Assembly: GCA_944322815.1 (NCBI GenBank)
Contig: CALUQB010000002.1
Span: 1-64,000 of the forward strand
Direction of reading: 5' to 3'
DNA: 64,000 nt
From: an uncultured Bacteroidales bacterium
GTDB taxonomy: Bacteria; Bacteroidota; Bacteroidia; Bacteroidales; UBA932
Program-made: the position numbers and the translations under genes
In this document: one piece after another, positions 4,600 through 32,704 of the stretch
Layout: each line of letters begins with the position of its first letter
Numbering within the stretch: position 1 is the first letter of the stretch
The notes under the pieces: generated by a model
Databases searched by the model: none
The model's input: the letters and a program-made list of their open reading frames with translations, nothing else
What the model was told of the DNA's origin: nothing

Positions 4600-7260
4600 A
4601 TGAAGTTGATTATGGAACTTTCTGCTAAGTACAACCCTTCTGTGACAGAAGACAAATGGTACGCCTATTGGCTCGAACATAAGTTTTTCCATTCCGAACC
4701 GGATGGACGGGAACCGTATACGATAGTGATTCCGCCGCCGAACGTTACCGGCATCCTGCATATGGGACATGTCCTGAACAATACCCTGAACGATGTCCTG
4801 ATCAGAAAAGCAAGGATGGACGGCAAGAATGCGTGCTGGATTCCCGGCACCGACCATGCATCCATCGCTACCGAGAACAAGGTGGTGGCCAAGCTGAAGG
4901 CAGAAGGGATAAACAAGGAAGATCTGACACGTGAAGAATTCCTCAAATATGCCTGGGAGTGGAAAGAAAAACACGGAGGCATCATTCTGAGCCAGCTCCG
5001 CAAACTCGGCGCCTCATGTGACTGGGACAGGACCAGATTCACCATGGATCCGGATTTAAGCGAGGCTGTCATAAACACTTTCGTATATTTCTACAGGAAA
5101 GGCTATATATACAGAGGTATCAGGATGGTGAACTGGGACCCTGTAGGTCACACTGCAGTCAGCGATGAGGAAGTGGTTCACAAGGACACAGTCAGCAAGT
5201 TCTATCATCTGAGATATTTCATTTCGGACGGAAACGGGAATCCTACTGACAAATACATCATCATCGCCACTACACGTCCGGAGACTATCATGGCCGATGC
5301 CGCCGTATGTATAAATCCGGAAGACGAAAGGTATCATTGGCTGAAAGGCAGGAAGGTCCTCATCCCGTTGATAAACAAGGAAATTCCGATCATCGAGGAC
5401 AGTTATGTGGAGATGGGATTCGGTACCGGATGCCTGAAAGTCACTCCGGCGCATGACGTGAACGACTACGAGATAGGGCTCAGACACAATCTTCCTGTCA
5501 CCGACATCATCGATGATCACGGCCGGCTGAACGAAAAGGCGCAGATACTGGTAGGAGAGGACCGGTTCGATGCCCGTCAGAAGATAGAAGGAATGCTCCG
5601 CGATGCGGGCAATCTCGAAAAGGTCGAAGACTATACATCACCTGTAGGCTATTCCGAAAGGACGAATGCCGTGATCGAACCGCGGCTCTCCATGCAGTGG
5701 TTCCTGAAGATGGATGCCCTGGCAAAGGACGCTCTGGAATCAGTTGAAAGCGGGAAGGTGAAGCTTATCCCAGACAAATACAGGAACACATACAGGCACT
5801 GGATGGAGAATGTACGTGACTGGTGCATCTCCCGACAGCTCTGGTGGGGACAGAGAATCCCTGCATATTACCTGCCTGACGGACAGTTCGTAGTGGAACC
5901 TACACCGGAAGCGGCCCTGGAAGCTGCCAGGAAGATCGATCCGTCCGTCACTGCCGCTGATCTGAAACAGGACGAAGACGTGCTGGATACATGGTTCTCA
6001 TCATGGCTCTGGCCGATATCCGTGTTCGATCCGGAAAAGCCGGGACATCCTGACCATGAGCCGAACAGGGATCTGGCATACTATTATCCGACCAATGATC
6101 TGGTGACAGGTCCGGACATTCTCTTCTTCTGGGTAGCCAGAATGATCATGGCCGGAAACGAATTCATGAAGGACGTACCTTTCAGGAATGTCTATCTTAC
6201 CGGCATCGTCCGCGACAAACTCGGCAGGAAAATGTCGAAAACCCTCGGAAACTCTCCGGACCCTCTCGATCTGATAGCGAAATACGGTGCGGATGCCGTG
6301 AGACTTGGCATGCTCCTGTGCAGTTCTGCAGGAAACGATATTCTGTACGATGAGGCACAGATAGAACAGGGCAGGAATTTCTGCAACAAGATCTGGAATG
6401 CATACAGGCTTATTGCCGGATGGAATGTCGATGCCTCTGCGCAGCAGCCTCAGTCGGCTGCCGTTGCGGTGAAATGGTTCGGATACAAGCTCAGCCAGGT
6501 GCTTGAGCAGGTGGAAGACCATTTCTCCAAATTCAGGATCTCCGATGCCCTGATGACCATATACAAATTCTTCTGGGATGACTTCTGCTCATGGTATCTC
6601 GAAGCTGTAAAGCCTGTTTACGGTGCAGGAATCGACCAGATGACTTTCGATGTTACCAGAGGATATTTCGAGGCATTGCTGAAGATGATACATCCTGTGA
6701 TGCCATTCATCACGGAAGAACTCTGGCAGGCAATGTCAGCGAGGAAAGAAGGGGAGACCATCATGCTCCAGCGTTATCCGACAGCAGAAGATTTCGATGC
6801 GGATTTCATTTCGGCTTTTGACAATGCCTGCGAGGCGGTAGCCGGAGTGAGGAATATCCGTCAGCAGAAGAACATTTCCCCGAAAGAAGCCCTCACTCTC
6901 AAAGTGAAGACAGATTTCCCGGCAGCGGTAGTCCCGGTCATAGAAAAACTGGCCAACGTAACCGTAGAGACAGCCGACTCATTCGGAGAAACTGCATCGG
7001 GCGTGACATTCATGGTGAAAACATTCGAAATGTTCGTTCCTCTGACAGGAATGGTGAATGCGGAAGAGGAGATAGCGAAGCTGGAAGCTGCCATAGCCTA
7101 TCAGGAAAAGTTCCTGGAAAGCGTTCGCAAGAAACTTTCGAACGAGAAATTCGTAAGCAGCGCACCTGAAAAGGTCGTTGCCATGGAGAGGAAGAAGGAA
7201 GCTGACTCTCTCGCCAAGATAGAGGCGGCCAAGGCTTCCCTGAAAGTACTTAAAGGTTGA
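4600..7260 (+). CDS. valS: Valine--tRNA ligase
   Basis: An 886-residue class Ia aminoacyl-tRNA synthetase charging tRNA-Val. The HIGH-type motif is [16 protein letters not shown] (HMGH at 54-57) and the KMSKS motif appears as [10 protein letters not shown] near residue 545. The editing domain lies between them, and the C-terminal 60 residues form the expected tRNA-binding coiled coil ([21 protein letters not shown]). The start at 4600 gives [11 protein letters not shown]; the internal ATG at 4612 is equally possible. The gene ends directly at the thioesterase gene, suggesting translational coupling. Confidence 0.97.
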
Positions 7261-11622: not shown

Positions 11623-12882
11623 TTATTGATAAAGGATATATTTCCGGACTGCGTCCAATGCTGACGCGGCAAACCGCTCCCTGTTGCGTATCCTGTCGTT
11701 GTGAAAGTGAAAATCCATGGTCTGTGTACCGTATTCCGAACTGATGCCGACCCATACCAGACCGACATCCTTGTTTTCGGAAGCGGCAGGACCGGCGTTT
11801 CCAGTAGTGGAAACCGCAAAATCGGAACCGGTCAGACGGCGGACTCCATCGGCCATTGCGGCTGCGCATTCCGGACTTACAGCCCCGTATCCGCCTATGA
11901 TGTCCGGAGACACACCCAGAACATTCTCCTTGACGCTGTATGCATACGAAACCACTGACCCGAGGAAATAGTCGGAAGCTCCTGGAACGGAAGTCAGCAG
12001 TGAAGCCACAAGACCGCCTGTACAAGACTCGGCCGTACTGATGGTCATGCCTTTCTTCCGCAGCAACTCTCCCACCACCTGTTGAAGGGTAGTTTCATTT
12101 TCCGCATAGACCGCATCGCCGAGAATCTTTTTCAGTTTTTCCGTCTCGGTGCTGAAAACGGTTTCCGCATCATCTGAGGCGCCGTAGACGGAGAGTCTCA
12201 GAGTGACTCCTTTGAGCGGATCCGGAAGATATGCCAGACGCACATAAGAAGGCAGGGCGCTTTCCCACCCTGCTATCTTCTCGGAAAGCGCGGATTCAGC
12301 TATTCCGTATGTCATGATAGTCTTATGATGTATTTCGGAAAGGCTGTATGCAGATCTGATATCTGAAATGATGTCTTTCATGGCACCTGCAGCTTCGAAC
12401 GGGACTCCGGGAAGAGAATAGACGGTGGCTGTATGCCCGTACTTCTCCTCGGGAAACCTCATCACCATCACAGGAGCTGTCCCGAGCCTGTTCGGGATCA
12501 CGCTGCACCTGTCAGGCACCTCAGCCTGTCTTCTGTTGGTTTCCAGCACGTCAAGTCCCCTTGAAGTAAGCAGATCATGTATGATTTCCAGCTGTCTGTT
12601 GTCAGTGACATAACCTGTACTTCCGGAAAGCCTGTACAGGACGCTCTTCGTGATGTCATCCTTAGTCGGGCCAAGTCCGCCAGTGACGATCACTATATCG
12701 TTCTTCCGCAGGCCTTCTTCTATCACACGTGAAATCTCCCTGCCGTCATCGCCGACGGACAGCATTTCACTGACCCTGACACCGGCCTTGCCAAGCTCAC
12801 GCGATATCATGGCCGAATTCGTATCCACTATCTGTCCTATGAGGATTTCGTCCCCGATGGTGCAAATGCTTGCCGTCGTCAT
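11623..12882 (-). CDS. cinA: CinA family protein, nicotinamide-nucleotide amidase
   Basis: A 419-residue two-domain CinA. The N-terminal MoCF/COG1058 domain (CTIGDEILIGQIVDTNSAMISREL, GGLGPTKDD) belongs to the ADP-ribose/NMN-processing type. The C-terminal amidase domain (ISTAESCTGGLVASLL...TTGNAGP) deamidates nicotinamide mononucleotide in pyridine-nucleotide recycling. Length fits the full-size form. It lies 19 bp downstream of pyrD in the same direction and may be co-transcribed with it. Confidence 0.92.
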   Translation of the reverse strand: MTTASICTIGDEILIGQIVDTNSAMISRELGKAGVRVSEMLSVGDDGREISRVIEEGLRKNDIVIVTGGLGPTKDDITKSVLYRLSGSTGYVTDNRQLEIIHDLLTSRGLDVLETNRRQAEVPDRCSVIPNRLGTAPVMVMRFPEEKYGHTATVYSLPGVPFEAAGAMKDIISDIRSAYSLSEIHHKTIMTYGIAESALSEKIAGWESALPSYVRLAYLPDPLKGVTLRLSVYGASDDAETVFSTETEKLKKILGDAVYAENETTLQQVVGELLRKKGMTISTAESCTGGLVASLLTSVPGASDYFLGSVVSYAYSVKENVLGVSPDIIGGYGAVSPECAAAMADGVRRLTGSDFAVSTTGNAGPAASENKDVGLVWVGISSEYGTQTMDFHFHNDRIRNRERFAASALDAVRKYILYQ

Positions 12883-23931: not shown

Positions 23932-23939
23932 TAACTTTG
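23932..23939 (+). promoter_or_regulatory. Candidate -7 box of the Hdr-like operon
   Basis: TAACTTTG matches TAnnTTTG in the gap after rlmD. Transcription from it would give a leader of about 85 bases before the ATG at 24033, including a small GGACC-TGAT-GGTCC hairpin (23982-23995). Confidence 0.4.
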
Positions 23940-24032
23940 CATGTTTGGTTTTCCGTCAAGGGGTGTTGTCAATACTGAGCGGGACCTGATGGTCCTGCGA
24001 TGATCTCCCCGGGATGGAGAGAAATAGGACAT

Positions 24033-24731
24033 ATGAAATTATACGATGAACTTTTGAAAGACTACAGGGCGAAGGAAGGGCTGAAAACCTGCATCAATTG
24101 CGGTACATGTACAGCCATCTGCCCTGCGGCCGAATTTTATAAATACGATCCGAGGAAAGTGATGGACATCGTCCAGAGCCGTGACGAAGCGGAAATCGAA
24201 AAACTCCTGAAAAGCGATTTCATATGGTACTGCGGCGAATGCATGTCATGCGTCACCCGTTGTCCGAGAAAAAACGGTCCCGGACTCGTGATCATGGCAT
24301 TGAGAAACCTGTCGGCCAGACTCGGCTACTTCACATGCTCCGAGAAAGGAAGGCAGCTCTACCCTCTTACGAAAATCCTTACCGGAAATATACTGAACTA
24401 CGGCTACTGTGTCTATCCCGATACTTTCAAATGGGAAGACCACAAGGAATCGGGTCCTGTCTGGAAATGGCATCTTGACCATATCGAAGATTCGATGGCC
24501 CGTCTCGGGGCGAATTTCAAGGGTAAAGGTCCTGGTGTGCTCAGGAAGATACCTCAGGAATCCCTCGACGAGCTGAAAAGCATATTCGATGTCACCGGCG
24601 GTACGGAACGTATCGAAACTGTGAACAGATTCTCGAAAGCCAAGGCCGAAGAGCTGGGCATGGACATGGACGATTATTTCAGGGAAACTTTCGAACATAC
24701 GTCGGAAGGACATCTCAACACCGAGGACTGA
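24033..24731 (+). CDS. HdrC-like 4Fe-4S protein (heterodisulfide reductase subunit C type)
   Basis: 232 residues. Two [4Fe-4S] motifs in HdrC spacing: C20-x2-C23-x2-C26-x3-C30-P and C67-x2-C70-x2-C73-x3-C77-P, as expected for an electron carrier between HdrA and HdrB. An in-frame ATG at 24000 would add 11 residues; 24033 is preferred because it gives the usual short N-terminus and follows AGGAC. The C-terminal ~150 residues extend beyond the ferredoxin fold and are mostly helical and charged. It is the first gene of a seven-gene forward cluster and is followed after 57 bp by hdrB-like. Confidence 0.85.
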   Translation: MKLYDELLKDYRAKEGLKTCINCGTCTAICPAAEFYKYDPRKVMDIVQSRDEAEIEKLLKSDFIWYCGECMSCVTRCPRKNGPGLVIMALRNLSARLGYFTCSEKGRQLYPLTKILTGNILNYGYCVYPDTFKWEDHKESGPVWKWHLDHIEDSMARLGANFKGKGPGVLRKIPQESLDELKSIFDVTGGTERIETVNRFSKAKAEELGMDMDDYFRETFEHTSEGHLNTED

Positions 24732-24788
24732 AAGCATTGCCGGAGGCATTAACATTGGCCGCAAGGCCCCTAAAATCAGAAAAACGAG

Positions 24789-25859
24789 ATGATATATCAG
24801 GGAAAACAGAAAATATGGGCGGATTATCAGAAGGAAATACCCGATAATCACTGGTTCTACGTAAGGAGCTGCATCAGGCAGAATTTCTTCCCGGGAGCTG
24901 AAAGGATGTTCATGGAGATAAGCCGGAATCTTCTGGGAAAAGACATATTCGAGACGGAGAACCATACGACTTGCGGAGGAATAGCATATCACTGCGATAC
25001 CATACCGCAGGAGACAGTCATGACCATAGTGGCCAGGCAGTTCGCTCTCATGACAGAGGCCGGATATGAAAACTATGTGGCTTCATGCATCACGTCTTTC
25101 GGGAACTACATCGAAATCCTGGAGACATGGAAAGAGTTTCCGGAGCTGGAAACTCGTATCCGCGAACTGCTGTGGAAAGCCTGCAAGAGAGAGTTCAACA
25201 AACCGAAATACGTAGCTCATGCCAGCGACCTCATATACAAGTACCGGAACGAAATAGCCGCCAGGGCGAAATACCGTCTTGTGGACAGGCACACCGGAGA
25301 ACCTCTCCGCGCAGTCGAGCATATCGGCTGCCACTATGCGAAGATGTTCCCTTCACGGGGAATCGGCGGAGCTGAATATCCTTATGTCCTCTGCGGCATG
25401 ATAGAGTCATGGGGAGGAAATGTCATAGACTATCCGGAAAGACGCCACTGCTGCGGCTACGGATTCAGGCAATATCATGTAAAGGCAAACAGAGGCTATT
25501 CCATCTCCAACACATACAAGAAATTCGAATCCATGGAGCCGTATCATCCGGACTTCATCCTCACGAACTGCCCCGGCTGTCCTTATTTCATGGACAGGTG
25601 GCAGTATGTCATAGCCGAGACTGAAGGCAAGACCTACGGAGAAAACGGCTACGGAATCCCTGTCCTGACATACGAAGAACTTGCATCCCTCGTGCTTGGA
25701 TACAATCCGTGGGACATAGGGCTGCAGCTTCACCAGGTCGCTGTCGAACCTCTGCTGGACAAACTTGGAATAGAATACGACCCTAAGGAAAAATACAAGG
25801 GACTGAATGAGAAGGAACTCATGAGACCTGAACTTCCAGGTGTGCTGAGATGCTGCTGA
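24789..25859 (+). CDS. HdrB-like protein with two CCG-type iron-sulfur domains
   Basis: 356 residues of the HdrB/CCG family. The first Cys module is SCIRQNFFPG...TTCGGIAYHC...VASC, degenerate compared with the classical CCG. The second is complete: IGCHYAK, then RHCCGYGFR, then TNCPGC. In methanogens HdrB holds the noncubane cluster where CoM-S-S-CoB is cleaved; bacterial relatives act on other disulfides or unknown substrates. Context is hdrC-hdrB-hdrA-hdrC, so it is probably the catalytic subunit of a soluble HdrABC-like complex. The substrate cannot be read from the sequence. Confidence 0.85.
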   Translation: MIYQGKQKIWADYQKEIPDNHWFYVRSCIRQNFFPGAERMFMEISRNLLGKDIFETENHTTCGGIAYHCDTIPQETVMTIVARQFALMTEAGYENYVASCITSFGNYIEILETWKEFPELETRIRELLWKACKREFNKPKYVAHASDLIYKYRNEIAARAKYRLVDRHTGEPLRAVEHIGCHYAKMFPSRGIGGAEYPYVLCGMIESWGGNVIDYPERRHCCGYGFRQYHVKANRGYSISNTYKKFESMEPYHPDFILTNCPGCPYFMDRWQYVIAETEGKTYGENGYGIPVLTYEELASLVLGYNPWDIGLQLHQVAVEPLLDKLGIEYDPKEKYKGLNEKELMRPELPGVLRCC

Positions 25860-25902
25860 CGTCCGTGCCGCACCTGAAAACGTTACTAAACCCGAATCTG
25901 AA

Positions 25903-26922
25903 ATGAAAGAGAACATAGTCATCGTCGGTGGCGGCATAGCCGGACTGGAAGCTGCCGCCCAGCTTTTGGATCTGGGCTACAAACCGATCATCATCGAGAA
26001 AAGCGACCACCTCGGCGGACATGTGGCCGACTGGAACTGCCTGTTCCCGGACATGTCCCCGGCAAAGGATGTCGTCAGCTCGCTGATAGCCCGTTCGGCT
26101 GAAGCCAATATCTTCCTGAATACCGAGATATCTTTCGTGAACAAGCTGAAAGACAGCTACAACATAATGCTGTCGAACGGTATATCCATCATCACCAGGA
26201 TATTGCTCATGACGACGGGGTTTTCCCTTTTCGATGCATCGAAAAAGGAAGAATACGGATATGGGATATACGACCAGGTCATGACTAACAAGGACCTCGA
26301 GCACTGGTTCAACACAGGAGATGACAAGCGCATAAACAACAGTGCCATGAATGCCGTAGGTTTCGTTCACTGCGTAGGGTCCCGCGACGAGAAAGCCAGG
26401 AATCCGCAATGTTCGAAAGTCTGCTGTATCACGGCGATAAAGCAGGCCATAGAACTGAAACAGAAGTTCCCGGATGCCATGGTCTACTGTTTCTACATGG
26501 ACTTGAGAATGTTCGGAAAGAAATACGAAGACTTCTACATCAACGCGCAGCGTGACTACGGTATCCGGTTCATCAGGGGACGGGTATCGGAAGTCGGTGA
26601 GAATATCGACGGAAGAGTGATAGTCAAGGCCGAGGACACCCTTTCAGGAAAACCTGTCAAGGTCACTCTTGATCTTCTGGTGCTGATGGCAGGAATGGTC
26701 TGCAACCCTGACAGCACAAAAGTGGCGAACATGGCCAGTCTCCCGATAGATTCCGACGGGTTCCTCAAGTCAAGGGACAATGTAGCCGACATCATAGAGT
26801 CTCCGAAGGACGGAGTATTCTATGCCGGTGCCTGTACGGGACCGAAGACGGTCCCGGAAACATTGGCTGAGGCCAGGGCCGCAGCCCTGAAGATTTATCT
26901 GTACATTAAAGGACTTGAATGA
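25903..26922 (+). CDS. Compact HdrA-like FAD oxidoreductase
   Basis: 339 residues. FAD-binding GGGIAGLEAAAQLLDLGY (from residue 9) and HLGGH are followed by the HdrA cysteine signature C157...C170-x3-C174-C175 in HCVGSRDEKARNPQC and SKVCCITAIKQA. The C-terminal FAD-contact motif is FYAGACTGPKTVPETLAEA. It is much shorter than methanogen HdrA (~650 residues) and lacks the added ferredoxin domains used in flavin-based bifurcation, resembling QmoA-type subunits. The stop overlaps the start of the second HdrC-like gene (ATGA). Confidence 0.87.
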   Translation: MKENIVIVGGGIAGLEAAAQLLDLGYKPIIIEKSDHLGGHVADWNCLFPDMSPAKDVVSSLIARSAEANIFLNTEISFVNKLKDSYNIMLSNGISIITRILLMTTGFSLFDASKKEEYGYGIYDQVMTNKDLEHWFNTGDDKRINNSAMNAVGFVHCVGSRDEKARNPQCSKVCCITAIKQAIELKQKFPDAMVYCFYMDLRMFGKKYEDFYINAQRDYGIRFIRGRVSEVGENIDGRVIVKAEDTLSGKPVKVTLDLLVLMAGMVCNPDSTKVANMASLPIDSDGFLKSRDNVADIIESPKDGVFYAGACTGPKTVPETLAEARAAALKIYLYIKGLE

Positions 26923-27254
26923 TGGATTTCGGATTCAGAATATCGCCCAGTTCGGCCATCAATCTGGATAAGGTGAACCTGGAGAAGTTCGAGGAGCTTC
27001 ACAGGATAGAGCCTGACGTGTACAAATGCATGGCCTGCGGATCCTGTTCTTCCACATGTCCGGCCAACAGGTATTCGGGAATGAGTATCAGGAAAGTGAT
27101 ACTCGCACTGCAGAGAGGCAAGGAAAAGGAAGCCGTAGCCATGATGAGGAACTGCATGCTATGCGGGAAATGTACCATGGTATGCCCGCGCGGCATCAAT
27201 ACCAGGCATCTGATTCTGTCTATATGCAGGATATATGAGGAGGACGTGAAATGA
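26919..27254 (+). CDS. Second HdrC-like 4Fe-4S ferredoxin subunit
   Basis: A 111-residue minimal HdrC. It contains C37-x2-C40-x2-C43-x3-C47-P and C79-x2-C82-x2-C85-x3-C89-P. The start overlaps the hdrA-like stop, and the stop overlaps the start of the membrane protein gene at 27251, so the three are translationally coupled. This subunit most likely carries electrons between the HdrA-like flavoprotein and the membrane subunit, whereas the longer HdrC at 24033 sits next to HdrB. Confidence 0.87.
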   Translation: MMDFGFRISPSSAINLDKVNLEKFEELHRIEPDVYKCMACGSCSSTCPANRYSGMSIRKVILALQRGKEKEAVAMMRNCMLCGKCTMVCPRGINTRHLILSICRIYEEDVK

Positions 27255-29101
27255 GAGAGAGATTTCTGACAGGCTACAACGATTTCGTGCTGCCTTTCGT
27301 GTGCGGCATGATCTTCGTCCTCATATACTGTCTGGTAGGGCTGGTACGGATCATATTGCAGCTCCCTGCCGAGGACAGGAAACGTTTCTTCATCTCTTTG
27401 GTCACTCCGAAGACTCTCGTGAAGAACATAAAGGACATCTTCCTGAAATGCCTGATACATGTAGATATCTGGAAAAGGAACAAGCTTCTGGGCTACATGC
27501 ATTCCAGCATTGCTTTCGGATGGTTCATGCTCATAGTGGTAGGACACATCGAAGTCATGCTCTACACTTCCCGTCTGGGATTGAAAGCGCTCTACTACCC
27601 TATTTTCTTCAGATATTTCGTGGCTGAAACAGAGAGCACCATGAAAGGTTCTCTGATTTTCTTCCTCATGGACTTCTTCCTGCTGGTGGTACTCAGCGGC
27701 ATAGCCCTGGCCATCATCAAGCGCGTCCGTTCCAGACTTTTCGGAATGAGGAGAACCACGAATCCAAGTTTTCTGGACCTGATCGGCCAATACTCCCTCT
27801 GGTCCATCTTCCCTCTCCGTCTTCTGGCGGAATCGTTCACGGCCGATATCAGCGGAGGTTCGTTCCTTACAAAATCGCTGAACTACGTATTCACGGAATT
27901 CCTTAGCAACCACGCGAACATGCTGCCTGCATGGTGGGCGTATTCCTGTGCACTCGGGATCTTCTTCTTCGTACTGCCGTTCACCAGATACATGCACATC
28001 CCTACCGAGATCCTGCTGATTCCTTTCCGTAATGCCGGGATCAAGATAGTCAACGCCCGCAAGGGGTTTGCCAAGGCTCAGGTCTACTCGTGTCCGAGCT
28101 GCGGTCTGTGCATCGATGCCTGCCCGATGGGTGTCCTCAAAGGCAATATAAAGGATACTACCGTATATCTGAATCGCCAGATACGCAGGAACAACGAAAC
28201 CCGTATCGAGGAAATCAGCGACAAATGTCTTCTGTGCGGAAAATGTACTGCCATCTGCCCGGTAGGTGTGGAAGGTGACAAGCTGAGAATAGCGCAAAGG
28301 GCCGTCAGGAAATACAATTTCGGCCCTGACTATTCAAATATCGATGTCTCAGAGGAGATTCAAAGATGTAACAAATTTGTTACCAACCAAAACAATATTG
28401 TTTCATCATCGGATAATGAGAAAGTTCTCTACTTCGGAGGATGCATGACAGCTCTCACTCCAGCAATAATGAAGGCTACAGGTTCGGTACTGGAAAAGGC
28501 GGGGATTGAATTCGAAATCATGGACAAGGACGGCGGCATCTGCTGCGGCAGGCCTATGTTCATGGCCGGCAGATTCGCTCAGGCCATGCAGCTGGTAGAG
28601 AAGAATACGGAAATCATCATGAGTTCCGGTGCTGATACACTCTTGCTTTCGTGCCCGATATGCTACAAGATATTTCTGGAAAAATATCATCTGCCCGGTA
28701 TAGAGATCATCCATCATACCGAATATTTCGAGAGACTGATACTTTCCGGAAGACTGAAAGTAAGAAAAGAAGCTGTCAGATATGTCTATCATGATCCGTG
28801 TGAGCTGGGACGAGGATGCGGAGTGTACGAACAGCCGCGTACGGTGCTTTCAGCCGCTGGGGAACTCGTTGAAGCAGCTAAGAACAGAAAGGAAAGCATC
28901 TGCTGCGGCGGCAGTCTGGGAAGTCTGACTCTCGGCTTCGAGAAGAGAAAGGCCATGACTGAAAATGCGCTGAACAACCTCGTGGCTGACTCTCCTGAGA
29001 GGATAGTGACAGCCTGCCCTCTGTGCATGTCTACTTTCAACAGATATGCCGACAGACCGGTAGAAGACATAGCAATGGTCCTTGACAGGACAGCATACTG
29101 A
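27251..29101 (+). CDS. Membrane-bound Hdr-type fusion: haem-binding-like bundle + HdrC + HdrD modules
   Basis: 616 residues. Hydrophobic helices lie at about 12-37, 80-105, 135-157 and 225-245. The second carries H84 and H99, spaced like NarI/HdrE-type haem b ligands. Then follow two [4Fe-4S] motifs (C281/284/287/291 and C326/329/332/336) and two CCG modules (C398, C431-C432, C468/C471; and C517, C551-C552, C589/C592). This combines HdrE-, HdrC- and HdrD-like parts in one chain and predicts electron exchange between the quinone pool and a disulfide or sulfur substrate. Direction and partner are unknown. Cysteate synthase follows after 25 bp. Confidence 0.83.
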   Translation: MRERFLTGYNDFVLPFVCGMIFVLIYCLVGLVRIILQLPAEDRKRFFISLVTPKTLVKNIKDIFLKCLIHVDIWKRNKLLGYMHSSIAFGWFMLIVVGHIEVMLYTSRLGLKALYYPIFFRYFVAETESTMKGSLIFFLMDFFLLVVLSGIALAIIKRVRSRLFGMRRTTNPSFLDLIGQYSLWSIFPLRLLAESFTADISGGSFLTKSLNYVFTEFLSNHANMLPAWWAYSCALGIFFFVLPFTRYMHIPTEILLIPFRNAGIKIVNARKGFAKAQVYSCPSCGLCIDACPMGVLKGNIKDTTVYLNRQIRRNNETRIEEISDKCLLCGKCTAICPVGVEGDKLRIAQRAVRKYNFGPDYSNIDVSEEIQRCNKFVTNQNNIVSSSDNEKVLYFGGCMTALTPAIMKATGSVLEKAGIEFEIMDKDGGICCGRPMFMAGRFAQAMQLVEKNTEIIMSSGADTLLLSCPICYKIFLEKYHLPGIEIIHHTEYFERLILSGRLKVRKEAVRYVYHDPCELGRGCGVYEQPRTVLSAAGELVEAAKNRKESICCGGSLGSLTLGFEKRKAMTENALNNLVADSPERIVTACPLCMSTFNRYADRPVEDIAMVLDRTAY

Positions 29102-29126
29102 AAATTGGAATTAAAACATACGTACT

Positions 29127-30413
29127 ATGACCTTTGAACCTACAAGCTACAAGCTTATGAACTGTGCCGACGGAAGGATTTTCGAAGACTCCGGATGGAC
29201 ACTGGCCGACCCTCAGAGCGAGGTACCGTCTCTGGTAAGGGCCGTTTATGAAAAAAAGGATTTTGAAATCAGGAATGATCTGGACGGATTCTATAAGTTC
29301 GCGAACTGGCTTCCTATAAAAAGGACTTTGAACAATTCATGCCCTCCTGTCACGTATAAAAGCAGAAAACTGGCCGAGTATCTGAAACTGGAGAATCTGT
29401 ATATCACGTTTTCCGGCTATTATCCTGAAATCGGCGCTACCATGCAGACCTGCTCGTTCAAAGAGACCGAAGCATATTCGGTCTGCGCGCGTCTGGCTGA
29501 AGATGAAAAACGTGTCCTCGTCGTAGCATCGGCAGGCAATACGGCAAGGGCCTTTGCCAAGGTATGTTCGGACAACGGGATACGCCTGCTTCTGAGCATT
29601 CCGGAAGACAATATCCATGCCCTGTGGTTCGACAAGCCGCTGAATGACTGTGTGAAGATCATAGCCGCTCCCAAGGGTGCGGACTACTATGATGCCATAG
29701 CTTTGAGCGACAAGGTGTGCGAATCTCCTGCCTTCCTGGCAGAAGGAGGAGCCAAGAATATAGCCAGACGTGACGGCATGGGTACTACTATCCTGTCGGC
29801 AGTGGAAAAGACAGGACGTATTCCTGATGCTTATTTCCAGGCTATAGGAAGCGGTACCGGGACGATAGCCGTATGGGAAAACAATCTCAGGCTCATTCAG
29901 GACGGCCGGTTCGGCACTCACAAGATGAGACTTTATCCGTCGCAGAATGATCCGTTCACCATCATGTATGATTCGTGGAAAGCCGGCTCCAGGGCTTTGG
30001 TTCCGCTTTCGCCTGAAGATGCCAGGATGCAGGCTTCGGAAATCAAGGCCAAGGTATTGTCGAACAGGAAACCGCCATATTCCCTTGCAGGAGGCGTATA
30101 TGATGCTATCCGGGATGCAGGCGGAAATATTTACAAGATATCCAATGATGTACTGGAGCAGTGGAAGGCGAAATTCCAGGAGCTTGAAGGCGTGGATATC
30201 TATTCTGCAGCCGCAGTTGCCGTCGCCAGCCTCGAAGAAGCGGTAAAGGACGGTTCCGTAAACAAGGACGAGCTTATCATGCTGAATATCACCGGTGGCG
30301 GGGAAAAGCTGGCCAAATCCCACAGGCAGGTGGTATATGCCACTCCTGATCTGGTGCTCGACCCGTCTCTGCCTGCAGAAGAAATCATAAGCAAGACCGA
30401 AAAATTATTCTGA
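29127..30413 (+). CDS. Cysteate synthase (PLP-dependent, threonine-synthase-like fold)
   Basis: 428 residues of the fold type II PLP family. It follows the cysteate synthase pattern: PVTYKSRKLAEYLKLENLYI, TCSFKETEA with the PLP lysine K112, VASAGNTARAFAKV for the PLP phosphate cup, FLAEGGAKNIARRDGMG, and QAIGSGTGTIAVWENNLRLI. The enzyme makes cysteate from O-phosphoserine and sulfite. Cysteate feeds coenzyme M synthesis in Methanosarcinales-type archaea and capnine/sulfonolipid synthesis in Bacteroidetes. Threonine synthase is the alternative, but the conserved stretches above fit cysteate synthase better. It is linked to the Hdr-like genes by a 25-bp gap. Confidence 0.78.
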   Translation: MTFEPTSYKLMNCADGRIFEDSGWTLADPQSEVPSLVRAVYEKKDFEIRNDLDGFYKFANWLPIKRTLNNSCPPVTYKSRKLAEYLKLENLYITFSGYYPEIGATMQTCSFKETEAYSVCARLAEDEKRVLVVASAGNTARAFAKVCSDNGIRLLLSIPEDNIHALWFDKPLNDCVKIIAAPKGADYYDAIALSDKVCESPAFLAEGGAKNIARRDGMGTTILSAVEKTGRIPDAYFQAIGSGTGTIAVWENNLRLIQDGRFGTHKMRLYPSQNDPFTIMYDSWKAGSRALVPLSPEDARMQASEIKAKVLSNRKPPYSLAGGVYDAIRDAGGNIYKISNDVLEQWKAKFQELEGVDIYSAAAVAVASLEEAVKDGSVNKDELIMLNITGGGEKLAKSHRQVVYATPDLVLDPSLPAEEIISKTEKLF

Positions 30414-30424
30414 TTCATACTATC

Positions 30425-31348
30425 ATGTCATTCAGTTTCTTACAGTCAGCTGCCACTGAAATCAAGGACAGCATAGATATCCAGAAAGCTACCGAACAGT
30501 TCGTAGAGAAAATCGCCACTACTCCGGCAGACCAGCTCCTGACCGAATTCGTGGACAAGGCCATAGCTTTCGGGCTCAAGGTGCTGGCGGCACTTGCCAT
30601 ATATGTCATAGGAGCGTGGCTTATCAAGAAACTAAAGAGGATAATCCATAATATTTTCGTCCGGAGGAATACGGAACATTCCATAGCCTCCTTCGTGGAG
30701 AGTCTGGCAAGTATCTTCATGACAGTCTTCCTGGTGATTTTCACCATAAGCGCTCTGGGAGTGAATACGACATCCATTGCAGCGCTTCTGGCTGCCGGAG
30801 GTATGGCCATAGGTATGGCCCTCAGCGGAACAGTCCAGAATTTCGCCGGCGGTATCATGCTGCTCGTGTTCAAGCCGTTCAAGGCCGGTGATTTCATCGA
30901 AGCTCAGGGATATAGCGGTACAGTGACAGACGTGACCATAGTCAGCACGAAGATCACAACGACAGACAACAGGAACATCATCATCCCTAACGGTTCCCTG
31001 TCAAACGGTACCATAAACAATTATTCCCAGAATGTATACAGGCGGCTGGAATGGCTGGTCGATGTGGAATACGGGGCCTCATCCGAGAAGGTAAAGGCTA
31101 TCCTCAAGAAGATAATCGATGAAGAAAAGAGGATAGTCTATGCTCCTGCCTCTCCGGCAGATCCGACCATCGCTTTGAATGCCCTCAGAGACAGCAGCGT
31201 ACAGTTTGTGGCCAGGGCATGGGTGAAAAAGGAAGATTACTGGGATGTGCTTTATGATGTGAACGAGAAGATCTACAATCAGATTCCGGAGAATGGAATC
31301 CAGTTCCCGTTCCCGCAGTTGGATGTACATATAGCAGGAAATGACTAG
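30425..31348 (+). CDS. MscS-type mechanosensitive channel
   Basis: A 307-residue small-conductance channel. Three transmembrane helices lie in the first ~135 residues; the pore helix carries the Gly/Ala pattern GGMAIGMALSGTVQNFAGGI, followed by the beta domain FKPFKAGDFIEAQGYSGTV and IIPNGSLSNGTINNYS. Family members open under membrane tension to release solutes. It starts 11 bp after the cysteate synthase stop and is probably in the same transcript. The last codons and the stop lie inside a perfect 40-bp palindrome. Confidence 0.9.
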   Translation: MSFSFLQSAATEIKDSIDIQKATEQFVEKIATTPADQLLTEFVDKAIAFGLKVLAALAIYVIGAWLIKKLKRIIHNIFVRRNTEHSIASFVESLASIFMTVFLVIFTISALGVNTTSIAALLAAGGMAIGMALSGTVQNFAGGIMLLVFKPFKAGDFIEAQGYSGTVTDVTIVSTKITTTDNRNIIIPNGSLSNGTINNYSQNVYRRLEWLVDVEYGASSEKVKAILKKIIDEEKRIVYAPASPADPTIALNALRDSSVQFVARAWVKKEDYWDVLYDVNEKIYNQIPENGIQFPFPQLDVHIAGND

Positions 31349-31366
31349 TCATTTCCTGCTATATGT
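31327..31366. terminator. Perfect 40-bp palindrome covering the mscS stop codon
   Basis: The 20-base arms (31327-31346, 31347-31366) are exact reverse complements with no spacer, centred on ACTAGT. The mscS stop TAG (31346-31348) lies at the centre. It could fold into a long terminator hairpin for the Hdr/mscS operon. It is followed after 6 bases by a second repeat element. Confidence 0.6.
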
Positions 31367-31372
31367 GCAAAT

Positions 31373-31461: not shown

Positions 31462-31510
31462 GTCACTCCGTGACTTGTGAATTTGCGTAACGTCACTCCG
31501 TGACTTGTGA
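31462..31510. repeat. 19-bp direct repeat at the flavodiiron gene stop
   Basis: GTCACTCCGTGACTTGTGA occurs at 31462-31480 and again at 31492-31510, offset 30 bp. The second copy contains the last codons and stop of the minus-strand flavodiiron gene, so the 3' end of that gene appears duplicated just beyond its stop. TAACGTCACTCCG at 31488 also resembles the 18-bp dispersed motif. Confidence 0.6.
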
Positions 31511-32704
31511 CGCTATGGTGTCGGCGAGGGCAGCCATATCGCATTTTTCTGGAGTGAAGGCCTGGGGGAAGGAAAGTCCCTCCGATATCAGGTCGAATCC
31601 GAGCTTGGAAGCCATCTCGTTAAGAAGCTTCACACTGGCTCCGGCCCAGGTAAATGATCCGAAGGCTGCAAATGCGCGATTCTTCATCAGGCGTGCGGAC
31701 ACACCGTACATGAAACTGAATGCAGGCGGGAAAATGTCGTTGTTATAGGTAGGTGCACCTACCGCCAGCGTATCATACCTGAATGCATCACGATATGCAT
31801 ACGATACATTTTCCGTGCAGAGATTGTGAACGGCATACCGCACTCCCCTCTTTTCGAGTTCGGCCGCCAGAGACATGGCCGCCTTCTCCGTATTTCCGTA
31901 CATGGACGCATAGACTATGCAGACACCCTTTTCTCCTTCATAGCGGCTCAGCCTGTCATAGCAAGACACGACTTCCGCGATGTTCTTCTCCCATACCGGA
32001 CCGTGAGTACTGCATATTCTGGAAATCTCCAGACCGGCAAGTTTCTTCATCGCCGCCTGGACTGTCTGGCCGTATTTTCCCACTATATTCGAATAATACC
32101 TGAGCATTTCCCCGTTGAACGCTTCAAAGGTATCCGCAGCGGCATCGCTGCAACCGTACAGGCGTGCACCCGCATCCGTTATTCCGTCAGCCAATGCACC
32201 GAAGGTTCCGAAAGCATCCCCGGAGAAAAGGGTTTTCTCTTCATGAAAGTATGTCATCATGGTCTCCGGCCAATGCACCATCGGCGTCATGTGGAAAGTC
32301 AGCGTGCTGTTTCCGAGACTGATGCTGTCACCTTCTTTCACGATATGAAGATTCTCACAGATCCCGTAATATCCCTTGATCATCGGAACTGTCTTGGCAT
32401 TTCCCACTATCCTCGCTTCCGGATATGCTTCGCGGATCATGGACATGAGAGATGAGTGATCCGGTTCCATGTGGTTCACCACCAGATAGTCGACCTTCCT
32501 TTCACCGAGTTCGCGGCGGATATTTTCCATGTATTCCGCAGCATAACCTGCTTCAGCCGTATCGATCAAGGCCACTTTGTCATCAATGACAAGATAAGAA
32601 TTGTAGCTGACGCCGAAAGGCAACGGCCACATTCCCTCAAAAAGGGATTTTTTCAGATCGTTGACTCCGACATAACGTATTCTTTCTGAAATCCTGCTGT
32701 TCAT
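31493..32704 (-). CDS. Flavodiiron protein (FprA-type oxygen/nitric oxide reductase)
   Basis: 403 residues. The N-terminal metallo-beta-lactamase-like domain carries the diiron motif H78-x-E80-x-D82-H83 (NHMEPDHSS), with further ligands in PMVHWPE, FSGDAFG and STHGPVW. The C-terminal flavodoxin domain binds FMN through YASMYGNTEKAA. There is no rubredoxin domain, so this is a class A enzyme that needs an external electron donor. It reduces O2 or NO to protect anaerobic metabolism. It may be the last gene of the pyk-GNAT-barrel cluster, 32 bp after the preceding gene. Confidence 0.92.
   Translation of the reverse strand: MNSRISERIRYVGVNDLKKSLFEGMWPLPFGVSYNSYLVIDDKVALIDTAEAGYAAEYMENIRRELGERKVDYLVVNHMEPDHSSLMSMIREAYPEARIVGNAKTVPMIKGYYGICENLHIVKEGDSISLGNSTLTFHMTPMVHWPETMMTYFHEEKTLFSGDAFGTFGALADGITDAGARLYGCSDAAADTFEAFNGEMLRYYSNIVGKYGQTVQAAMKKLAGLEISRICSTHGPVWEKNIAEVVSCYDRLSRYEGEKGVCIVYASMYGNTEKAAMSLAAELEKRGVRYAVHNLCTENVSYAYRDAFRYDTLAVGAPTYNNDIFPPAFSFMYGVSARLMKNRAFAAFGSFTWAGASVKLLNEMASKLGFDLISEGLSFPQAFTPEKCDMAALADTIASQVTE

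Follow-up and report, generated by a model that had tools for sequence, protein, structure and literature searches.

Background

From what source might a gut bacterium without sulfate assimilation obtain the sulfite that cysteate synthase requires? The question is raised by a run of seven forward genes at positions 24033-31348 of a 64,000-nucleotide stretch of DNA (contig CALUQB010000002.1, assembly GCA_944322815.1, positions 1 to 64,000) from an uncultured Bacteroidales bacterium of the UBA932 lineage. This whole stretch is referred to below as the window, and the assembly (G000; 2.68 Mb, 93.9 % complete), which has several Candidatus Cryptobacteroides among its nearest named relatives, as the window genome. 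Five genes related to heterodisulfide reductase (Hdr) stand here directly before the gene for cysteate synthase (CS), the enzyme that makes cysteate from phosphoserine and sulfite. The original prediction, made from the letters of the DNA, offered three readings of the run: a sulfonolipid (capnine) pathway with its own redox module, a module that supplies the sulfite used by CS, or a disulfide metabolism with a sulfonate thiol.

Bioactivity is attributed to the sulfonolipids of gut Bacteroidales (PMC10191378). Our literature searches gave no account of Hdr-like genes combined with cysteate synthase or sulfonolipid genes, and no paper stating the source from which an anaerobe that lacks sulfate assimilation draws its sulfite. 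In the main text of the paper on the Alistipes finegoldii enzyme SulA (PMC9304779), neither the word "sulfite" nor the word "heterodisulfide" is used.

Here we describe the linkage of the redox genes with CS and further sulfonolipid genes, which suggests that a redox complex makes sulfite for lipids without sulfate assimilation. We favour reading the run as a sulfonolipid precursor operon in which a membrane complex resembling the sulfur-oxidising Hdr-like system (sHdr) makes the sulfite for CS and replaces sulfate assimilation, a proposal that we think about equally likely to hold or to fail. By naming a candidate source of the sulfite, the operon makes the question testable.

Results

Hdr-like genes and cysteate synthase in a single run

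All seven open reading frames of the predicted run were recovered. The first, C1 (24033..24731, on the forward strand like the six that follow), encodes an HdrC-like 2[4Fe-4S] electron carrier of 232 aa; a start at 24000 is also possible, and matches to relatives begin from the start at 24033. After 57 bp comes B (24789..25859), an HdrB-like subunit of 356 aa, and after another 43 bp A (25903..26922), a compact HdrA-like FAD-type protein of 339 aa; the three were recognised by matches to Hdr models. Overlaps of 4 bp join A to C2 (26919..27254), a small 2[4Fe-4S] protein of 111 aa, and C2 to M (27251..29101), a 616-aa fusion of a membrane domain, an HdrC-like ferredoxin domain and two CCG motifs. 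CS (29127..30413; 428 aa) begins 25 bp after M, and an MscS-type small-conductance channel of 307 aa (30425..31348) closes the run 11 bp further on. Three junctions (A/C2, C2/M and CS-MscS) are thus overlapping or shorter than 15 bp, as had been predicted.

The gene identities hold. CS scores 450.8 bits with TIGR03844, above its curated cut-off of 324.9. For the Hdr proteins, the matches to Hdr models stay below the cut-offs of the methanogen-type NCBIfam equivalogs (A, 247.7 against 1100; B, 125.1 against 450; C1, 79.1 against 350 bits), so that "Hdr-like" is the right label. Membership of the QmoC equivalog NF038018 was not indicated either, with 50.6 bits for C1 against a cut-off of 300 and no QmoC row for M among the 25 families listed.

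B is the best conserved of the three aligned subunits. Its N-terminal cysteine motif is reduced in all 14 aligned sequences (C28, T61-C62, C100-x-x-S103) and its C-terminal CCG motif is complete (C181, C221-C222, C261, C264). Selenocysteine in HdrB was considered and rejected: two genomes are listed with 2 TGA, but the matched parts are free of stops and the TGAs lie beyond the match. The membrane domain of M comprises residues ~1-270, with hydropathy peaks at 13-31, 79-97, 135-153 and 224-242, and the HdrC-like ferredoxin domain residues 278-340. Across 15 sequences, His70, His84 and His249 of M are invariant, as are its two complete CCG motifs (C398, C431-C432, C468, C471; C517, C551-C552, C589, C592).

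The run is conserved in changing surroundings

The original prediction was to be refuted if Hdr-like genes and CS proved not to be neighbours in related genomes. It survived this test, with the limit that in the order-wide sample described below such neighbours were seen only in the window's own family. The comparison rests on 80 named loci, the best 80 of at least 500 matches to M, which carries a bias to close kin. In 47 of them M is followed immediately by an intact CS; the others comprise one locus with CS remnants (L147), one with CS 3.5 kb away, 30 with no CS in the locus and one that is truncated. All 74 loci that hold the five Hdr genes have them in the order C1-B-A-C2-M, the remaining six holding fewer. 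Twelve loci have an intact SDR ahead of C1, with 9-31 bp between the ends of the two matches; of these loci, 11 have an intact CFAT (the cysteate fatty acyltransferase of capnine synthesis) and 11 have CS downstream, and the full series VOC-CFAT-SDR-C1-B-A-C2-M-CS occurs in nine. The six genes from C1 to CS stay joined while their surroundings change: there may be rlmD before and MscS after, as in the window, or the run may be preceded by a CaCA exchanger, by VOC-CFAT-SDR, by a gene of about 1075 aa (7 loci) or by MarR (L183 and L293, the latter from the one-contig genome G246). The whole series C1-B-A-C2-M-CS-MscS is also carried by L134, from a record titled Muribaculum sp. An289. The arrangement is more than chance and is not a local accident.

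In L140, which lies inside an unlinked clade of the HdrB tree, the cassette again follows VOC-CFAT-SDR and no CS comes after M. A PLP enzyme resembling threonine synthase and cysteate synthase is encoded between CFAT and SDR (L140:4909-6123, forward strand; TIGR03844 126.8 bits, below both cut-offs), and is possibly a second, independent cysteate synthase.

Several further observations concern these neighbourhoods. The gene that opens the sulfonolipid run in L063 (18139-19212, reverse strand) and ten other VOC-SDR loci encodes a 357-aa two-domain protein of the VOC/glyoxalase fold. Genome G012 carries two cysteate synthases (C54 and C26; L067 and L068), one with the Hdr cassette and one in an rlmD-CaCA-CS arrangement without Hdr. 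A SulP/DauA-type permease directly follows MarR-Hdr-CS in L183 (9177-10886, forward strand).

Signals for transcription as one unit

The motif TAnnTTTG, the -7 promoter consensus of Bacteroidota, is matched by TAACTTTG at 23932..23939 on the forward strand, 93 bases before the start of C1. Within 150 bp upstream of C1 the motif is present in 38 of the 53 named loci in which C1 comes first (3.0 expected from mononucleotide shuffling) and in none of the 19 in which SDR or CaCA precedes C1 (0.7 expected; L147 among the 19). It occurs at most 100 bp upstream of a linked CS in 4 of 48 loci, L147 with its CS remnants being among the 48. This distribution fits one apparent unit running from C1, or from VOC, through CS. 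A generic sigma-70 scan showed no enrichment, with 7 sites where shuffled sequence gave 9.0.

A terminator-like hairpin with a 20-pair stem and a weak T-tract lies at the end of MscS (31324..31369, forward strand). Terminator-like sites number 8 in the region against 6.6 expected from shuffles; two of the eight are this hairpin, and the stems of the others have 5 or 6 pairs. In some genomes MscS comes after CS even where no Hdr genes are adjacent. Downstream of MscS a flavodiiron-type protein with ODP and flavodoxin domains (31493-32704, reverse strand) converges on the operon, and relatives of it are found near CS in other loci, for example L069, L078 and L080.

Capnine genes in the window genome and its relatives

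The original prediction proposed to check for CFAT in genomes with the cluster: besides the 11 loci that join CFAT and SDR to the run, the window genome has a CFAT-SDR pair elsewhere. Its CFAT (C5:66551-67804) shares 73 % identity with the CFAT next to CS in G001 and scores 573 bits to 28eh, a chain named cysteate-C-fatty acyltransferase, and 595 bits to 7u7h, which we take to be SulA although its listing carries another name. It keeps a Lys 30 residues after the Schiff-base Lys, corresponding to Lys281, the diagnostic residue of SulA that replaces an Ala of serine palmitoyltransferase (PMC9304779). The SDR gene overlaps the end of the CFAT gene and encodes a candidate 3-ketocapnine reductase, SDRs being a large family. 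A sulfonolipid pathway with its own redox module is therefore well supported as a genetic association, through the CFAT and SDR genes joined to the run in relatives and the CFAT with its diagnostic Lys, next to an SDR, in the window genome.

Within the genus, 37 genomes (the window genome included) comprise 25 with CS and 14 with M; 13 of the 14 have CS and the remaining one (G015) has CFAT. If a genome is counted as sulfonolipid-positive when it has either CS or a CFAT that is at least 70 % identical, M is present in 14 of 27 positive and 0 of 10 negative genomes (p=0.0056, uncorrected for kinship or assembly incompleteness). Of the 61 genomes searched, five (G000, G012, G026, G029 and G034) have M next to CS.

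The presence of CFAT also bears on the third of the predicted readings, that a thiol resembling coenzyme M (CoM) would be made from cysteate and that its heterodisulfide would be the substrate of the Hdr-like complex. CS and HdrB do both have relatives in methanogen CoM metabolism, but 24 of the 25 same-genus genomes with CS have a CFAT of at least 70 % identity, the known consumer of cysteate. Moreover HdrB, the best conserved subunit, is nearly as conserved in genomes where CS was not found (58-70 % identical), so that its substrate is unlikely to depend on cysteate. We found no support for a disulfide metabolism of this kind and reject it as highly improbable.

Sulfate assimilation and the Hdr-like genes

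A search of the window genome for PF01507, which we take to include CysD and CysH, gave no match, while 14 of 14 control genomes were positive; the genome thus has neither CysD nor CysH. Across the order we surveyed 344 Bacteroidales genomes of at least 85 % completeness, counting HdrB alone as Hdr; of nine HdrB-positive genomes read more fully, one (G315) shows only C1-B. HdrB is present in 113, CS in 97 and both in 40. Among the 97 genomes with CS, HdrB occurs in 18 of 22 without PF01507 against 22 of 75 with it (p=1.5e-5). The genomes without CS show no such link (22 of 79 without PF01507 against 51 of 168 with it; p=0.77). A permutation at the level of families (34 families) gave a one-sided p=4e-5, or 3e-4 when exceptions from the window's own genus were included, these being same-genus CS-positive genomes at least 90 % complete that were entered by hand, the partial PF01507 match of G003 counting as absence.

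A YeiH-type transporter beside cysteate synthase

For Hyphomicrobium, which has sHdr, YeiH is described as exporting sulfite (PMC12423496). A gene of this family directly follows CS in L154 (13124-14464), L155 and L156, which have Hdr genes, and in L071, which has none; in L065 CS is followed first by a MarR-like ORF and then, ~0.5 kb on, by the YeiH-family gene on the same strand as CS. In the genus, a long type of YeiH is present in 23 of 27 sulfonolipid-positive against 0 of 10 sulfonolipid-negative genomes, the negative genome G031 having another type. All 12 same-genus genomes with CS and without Hdr carry the long YeiH, and the CS-positive genomes without it (G000, G013 and G034) all have Hdr, a split that within the CS-positive genomes is not significant (p=0.22).

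Across the order, long YeiH was defined by hand-picking (match from profile position 6 or earlier, below 190 bits, open frame of at least 401 aa) and occurs in 22 of 97 genomes with CS against 7 of 247 without (p=3e-8, uncorrected for kinship). Either HdrB or long YeiH is present in 21 of 22 CS-positive genomes without PF01507 against 25 of 75 with it, again uncorrected for kinship. In independent pairs on the CS tree, 2.2 were for and 1.0 against the association of Hdr or YeiH, and 3.7 for and 0.5 against that of YeiH alone, where fewer than 6 informative pairs cannot reach 0.05. One way to read these results is as two sulfite routes, uptake and internal production.

Discussion

Comparison with known systems

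Among characterised systems, type II sHdr (shdrC1B1AHB3 with etfAB) offers the closest comparison in layout. Shared with it are the order C1-B1-A-(small gene)-(fused C2B2), subunits of the CCG type and a compact A of ~340 aa; a fused C2B2 has been described for type II sHdr (PMC11582611), and sHdr complexes release sulfite from sulfane sulfur (PMC6067878, PMC12423496). The slot of its fourth gene, H, is occupied here by C2, the 111-aa ferredoxin. The two differ in that M, the equivalent of B3, carries a membrane domain with invariant His residues, in that no etfAB lies beside the genes (the neighbours are rlmD and the flavodiiron-type protein), and in that the partner enzyme, CS, is anabolic.

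Methanogen HdrABC shares with the run a B that aligns over its length with HdrB (125 bits), and differs in that its HdrA has N-terminal and ferredoxin parts which are missing from the A encoded here, and in that the curated cut-offs are not reached. HdrDE combines membrane, HdrC-like and HdrB-like parts, as M does.

An Hdr-like cluster on plasmid NZ_CP016476.1 of Picosynechococcus sp. PCC 7003 has C1, B and A in the same order (C1-B-A-C2-B2 and an FAD oxidoreductase; L188:11242-16982, forward strand), with identities of 45 % for C1 (197 aa), 41.5 % for B and 41.9 % for A, and a B with the same reduced N-terminal motif. It differs by having separate C2 and B2 genes and the FAD oxidoreductase in place of M, and no CS is annotated within the 25 kb shown.

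The capnine pathways of Alistipes (SulA) and Capnocytophaga (CapABC) likewise use an archaeal-type CS, a CFAT/SulA-like enzyme with the diagnostic Lys and an SDR (PMC9304779, PMC11211663, PMC10191378). A. finegoldii differs in that its kcr genes are located apart from cfat and Cys (PMC11211663).

A proposed route from sulfide to capnine

In the mechanism that we favour, C1-B-A-C2-M would form a membrane-bound complex whose layout is related to that of sulfur-oxidising sHdr. On its noncubane [4Fe-4S] centres the complex would oxidise sulfur of the sulfane level, present as a persulfide or as bound S0 and with sulfide or cysteine as its ultimate origin, to sulfite. The electrons would pass through A, C1 and C2 and then through the membrane domain of M, which presumably binds heme, to menaquinone; the likely final acceptor is fumarate. 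With redox potentials of about -116 mV for sulfite/sulfide and about -75 mV for menaquinone, electron transfer to menaquinone is allowed. CS would then condense the sulfite with phosphoserine to cysteate, which CFAT and SDR would turn into capnine, and the complex would replace sulfate assimilation as the sulfite source in what is probably an anaerobe without CysD and CysH. The sulfur context of the run speaks for this route as well: a YeiH-type gene comes straight after CS in L154-L156, a SulP after CS in L183, and in L294 C1-B lie next to a CoA-disulfide reductase-rhodanese fusion and a metallo-beta-lactamase-fold protein, company that fits a persulfide substrate. Of the predicted roles, the supply of sulfite to CS stands as our best mechanism, backed by the layout, the missing sulfate assimilation and the transporter context, and is unproven; if the module does supply this sulfite, the sulfonolipid reading and the sulfite-supply reading become one.

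Evidence that weighs against sulfite supply, and competing explanations

A number of observations weigh against this mechanism. The first group concerns the likeness to sHdr. No LbpA candidate was found in the window genome at its 93.9 % completeness: its sole strong GCV_H protein sits in a gcvT-gcvH-gcvP-(489 aa)-lpd-like run and one further hit is weak (23.5 bits). Nor was there a match to TusA (PF01206), for which 11 of 14 control genomes were positive, DsrE being outside the search. We therefore do not file the complex as sHdr; by analogy, it may work like sHdr with another sulfur donor. A aligns nearly end to end with the 349-aa chain of 6TJR, presumably the sHdrA of Hyphomicrobium, at 200 bits; its core scores 175-211 bits against five methanogen-type HdrA chains, so that sequence alone puts A nearer neither.

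The second group concerns distribution. Within the genus, 12 of the 25 genomes with CS lack Hdr, 11 of them without a PF01507 match and one (G003) with a partial match, while G013 and G029 have both Hdr and PF01507 and G002 has Hdr with a partial PF01507 match. Order-wide, the overall co-occurrence of CS and HdrB is weak (odds ratio 1.67, p=0.042, n=344), and 22 of the 40 genomes with both do have PF01507. A tree of the 97 CS sequences yields 7 independent pairs whose members are unlike in PF01507; on average, Hdr agrees with the prediction in 2.1 of these pairs and runs counter to it in 2.1. The association of Hdr with missing PF01507 across genomes may thus be clade structure and is suggestive only. 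Strict complementarity between Hdr and sulfate assimilation, strong in plain counts and in the family permutation, is gone in the independent pairs and was rejected.

The cassette is, moreover, not dedicated to sulfonolipids: 73 of the 113 genomes with HdrB have no CS, so that the complex has a wider role. L147 retains an intact set of Hdr genes, flanked on both sides by remnants of CFAT, SDR and CS (6661-7077 and 12062-12230, forward strand), which indicates that the cassette has, or the assembly suggests that it has, a value of its own. No consistent partner gene for the CS-free cassettes emerged among the 10 neighbour proteins tested.

The strong conservation and wide occurrence of HdrB (113 of 344 genomes), like the intact L147 cassette and the missing LbpA and TusA, speak for a rival reading. 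In it the complex would run reductively, or as a thiol-disulfide or persulfide relay, drawing on menaquinol or NADH to hold a disulfide or a persulfide in the reduced state, and would make no sulfite. Its role would then lie in sulfur stress or sulfide homeostasis, and it would sit with the sulfonolipid genes because both belong to a common sulfur regime. L294 (3252-8345, forward strand) points the same way: a single run there encodes an ApbC-like carrier, a CoA-disulfide reductase-rhodanese fusion, HdrC1, HdrB and a protein of the metallo-beta-lactamase fold, and the 14 kb read contain no match to A, C2 or M. By itself, however, a reductive or relay role leaves unexplained why, in several settings, the five genes appear to be transcribed together with CS, CFAT and SDR, and also the excess of HdrB in CS-positive genomes without PF01507, an excess that is itself not robust to phylogeny. 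We consider this explanation unlikely, though with a real chance of being right.

Linkage itself is narrow when viewed across the order, being confined to the window's family (4 of the 40 genomes with CS and HdrB), and on the HdrB tree it needs 6 changes over 95 labelled rows, with L147 counted as linked, so that one old linkage with losses is possible. Together with the mostly unrelated genes among the tested same-strand neighbours of unlinked cassettes, this could be accounted for by a general electron-transfer module that passes electrons from a cytosolic donor to menaquinone for energy, the CS neighbourhood being one family's historical arrangement with no metabolic link. Such a history sits poorly with six genes that stay joined from one setting to the next, and with the return of the cassette to VOC-CFAT-SDR in L140; we regard it as improbable.

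Conclusions

Under the sulfite-supply reading, the Hdr-like operon would represent biosynthetic sulfur oxidation: a menaquinone-linked membrane complex resembling sHdr, without LbpA and TusA, would make sulfite as a building block of sulfonolipids and not for energy, and a gut bacterium would build its membrane sulfonates from the sulfur of sulfide or cysteine instead of sulfate. We advance this view tentatively and put its chances somewhat below even. If true, it means that sulfur oxidation of the sHdr type, beyond its dissimilatory role in sulfur oxidisers, also serves lipid synthesis in the gut from sulfide-level sulfur.

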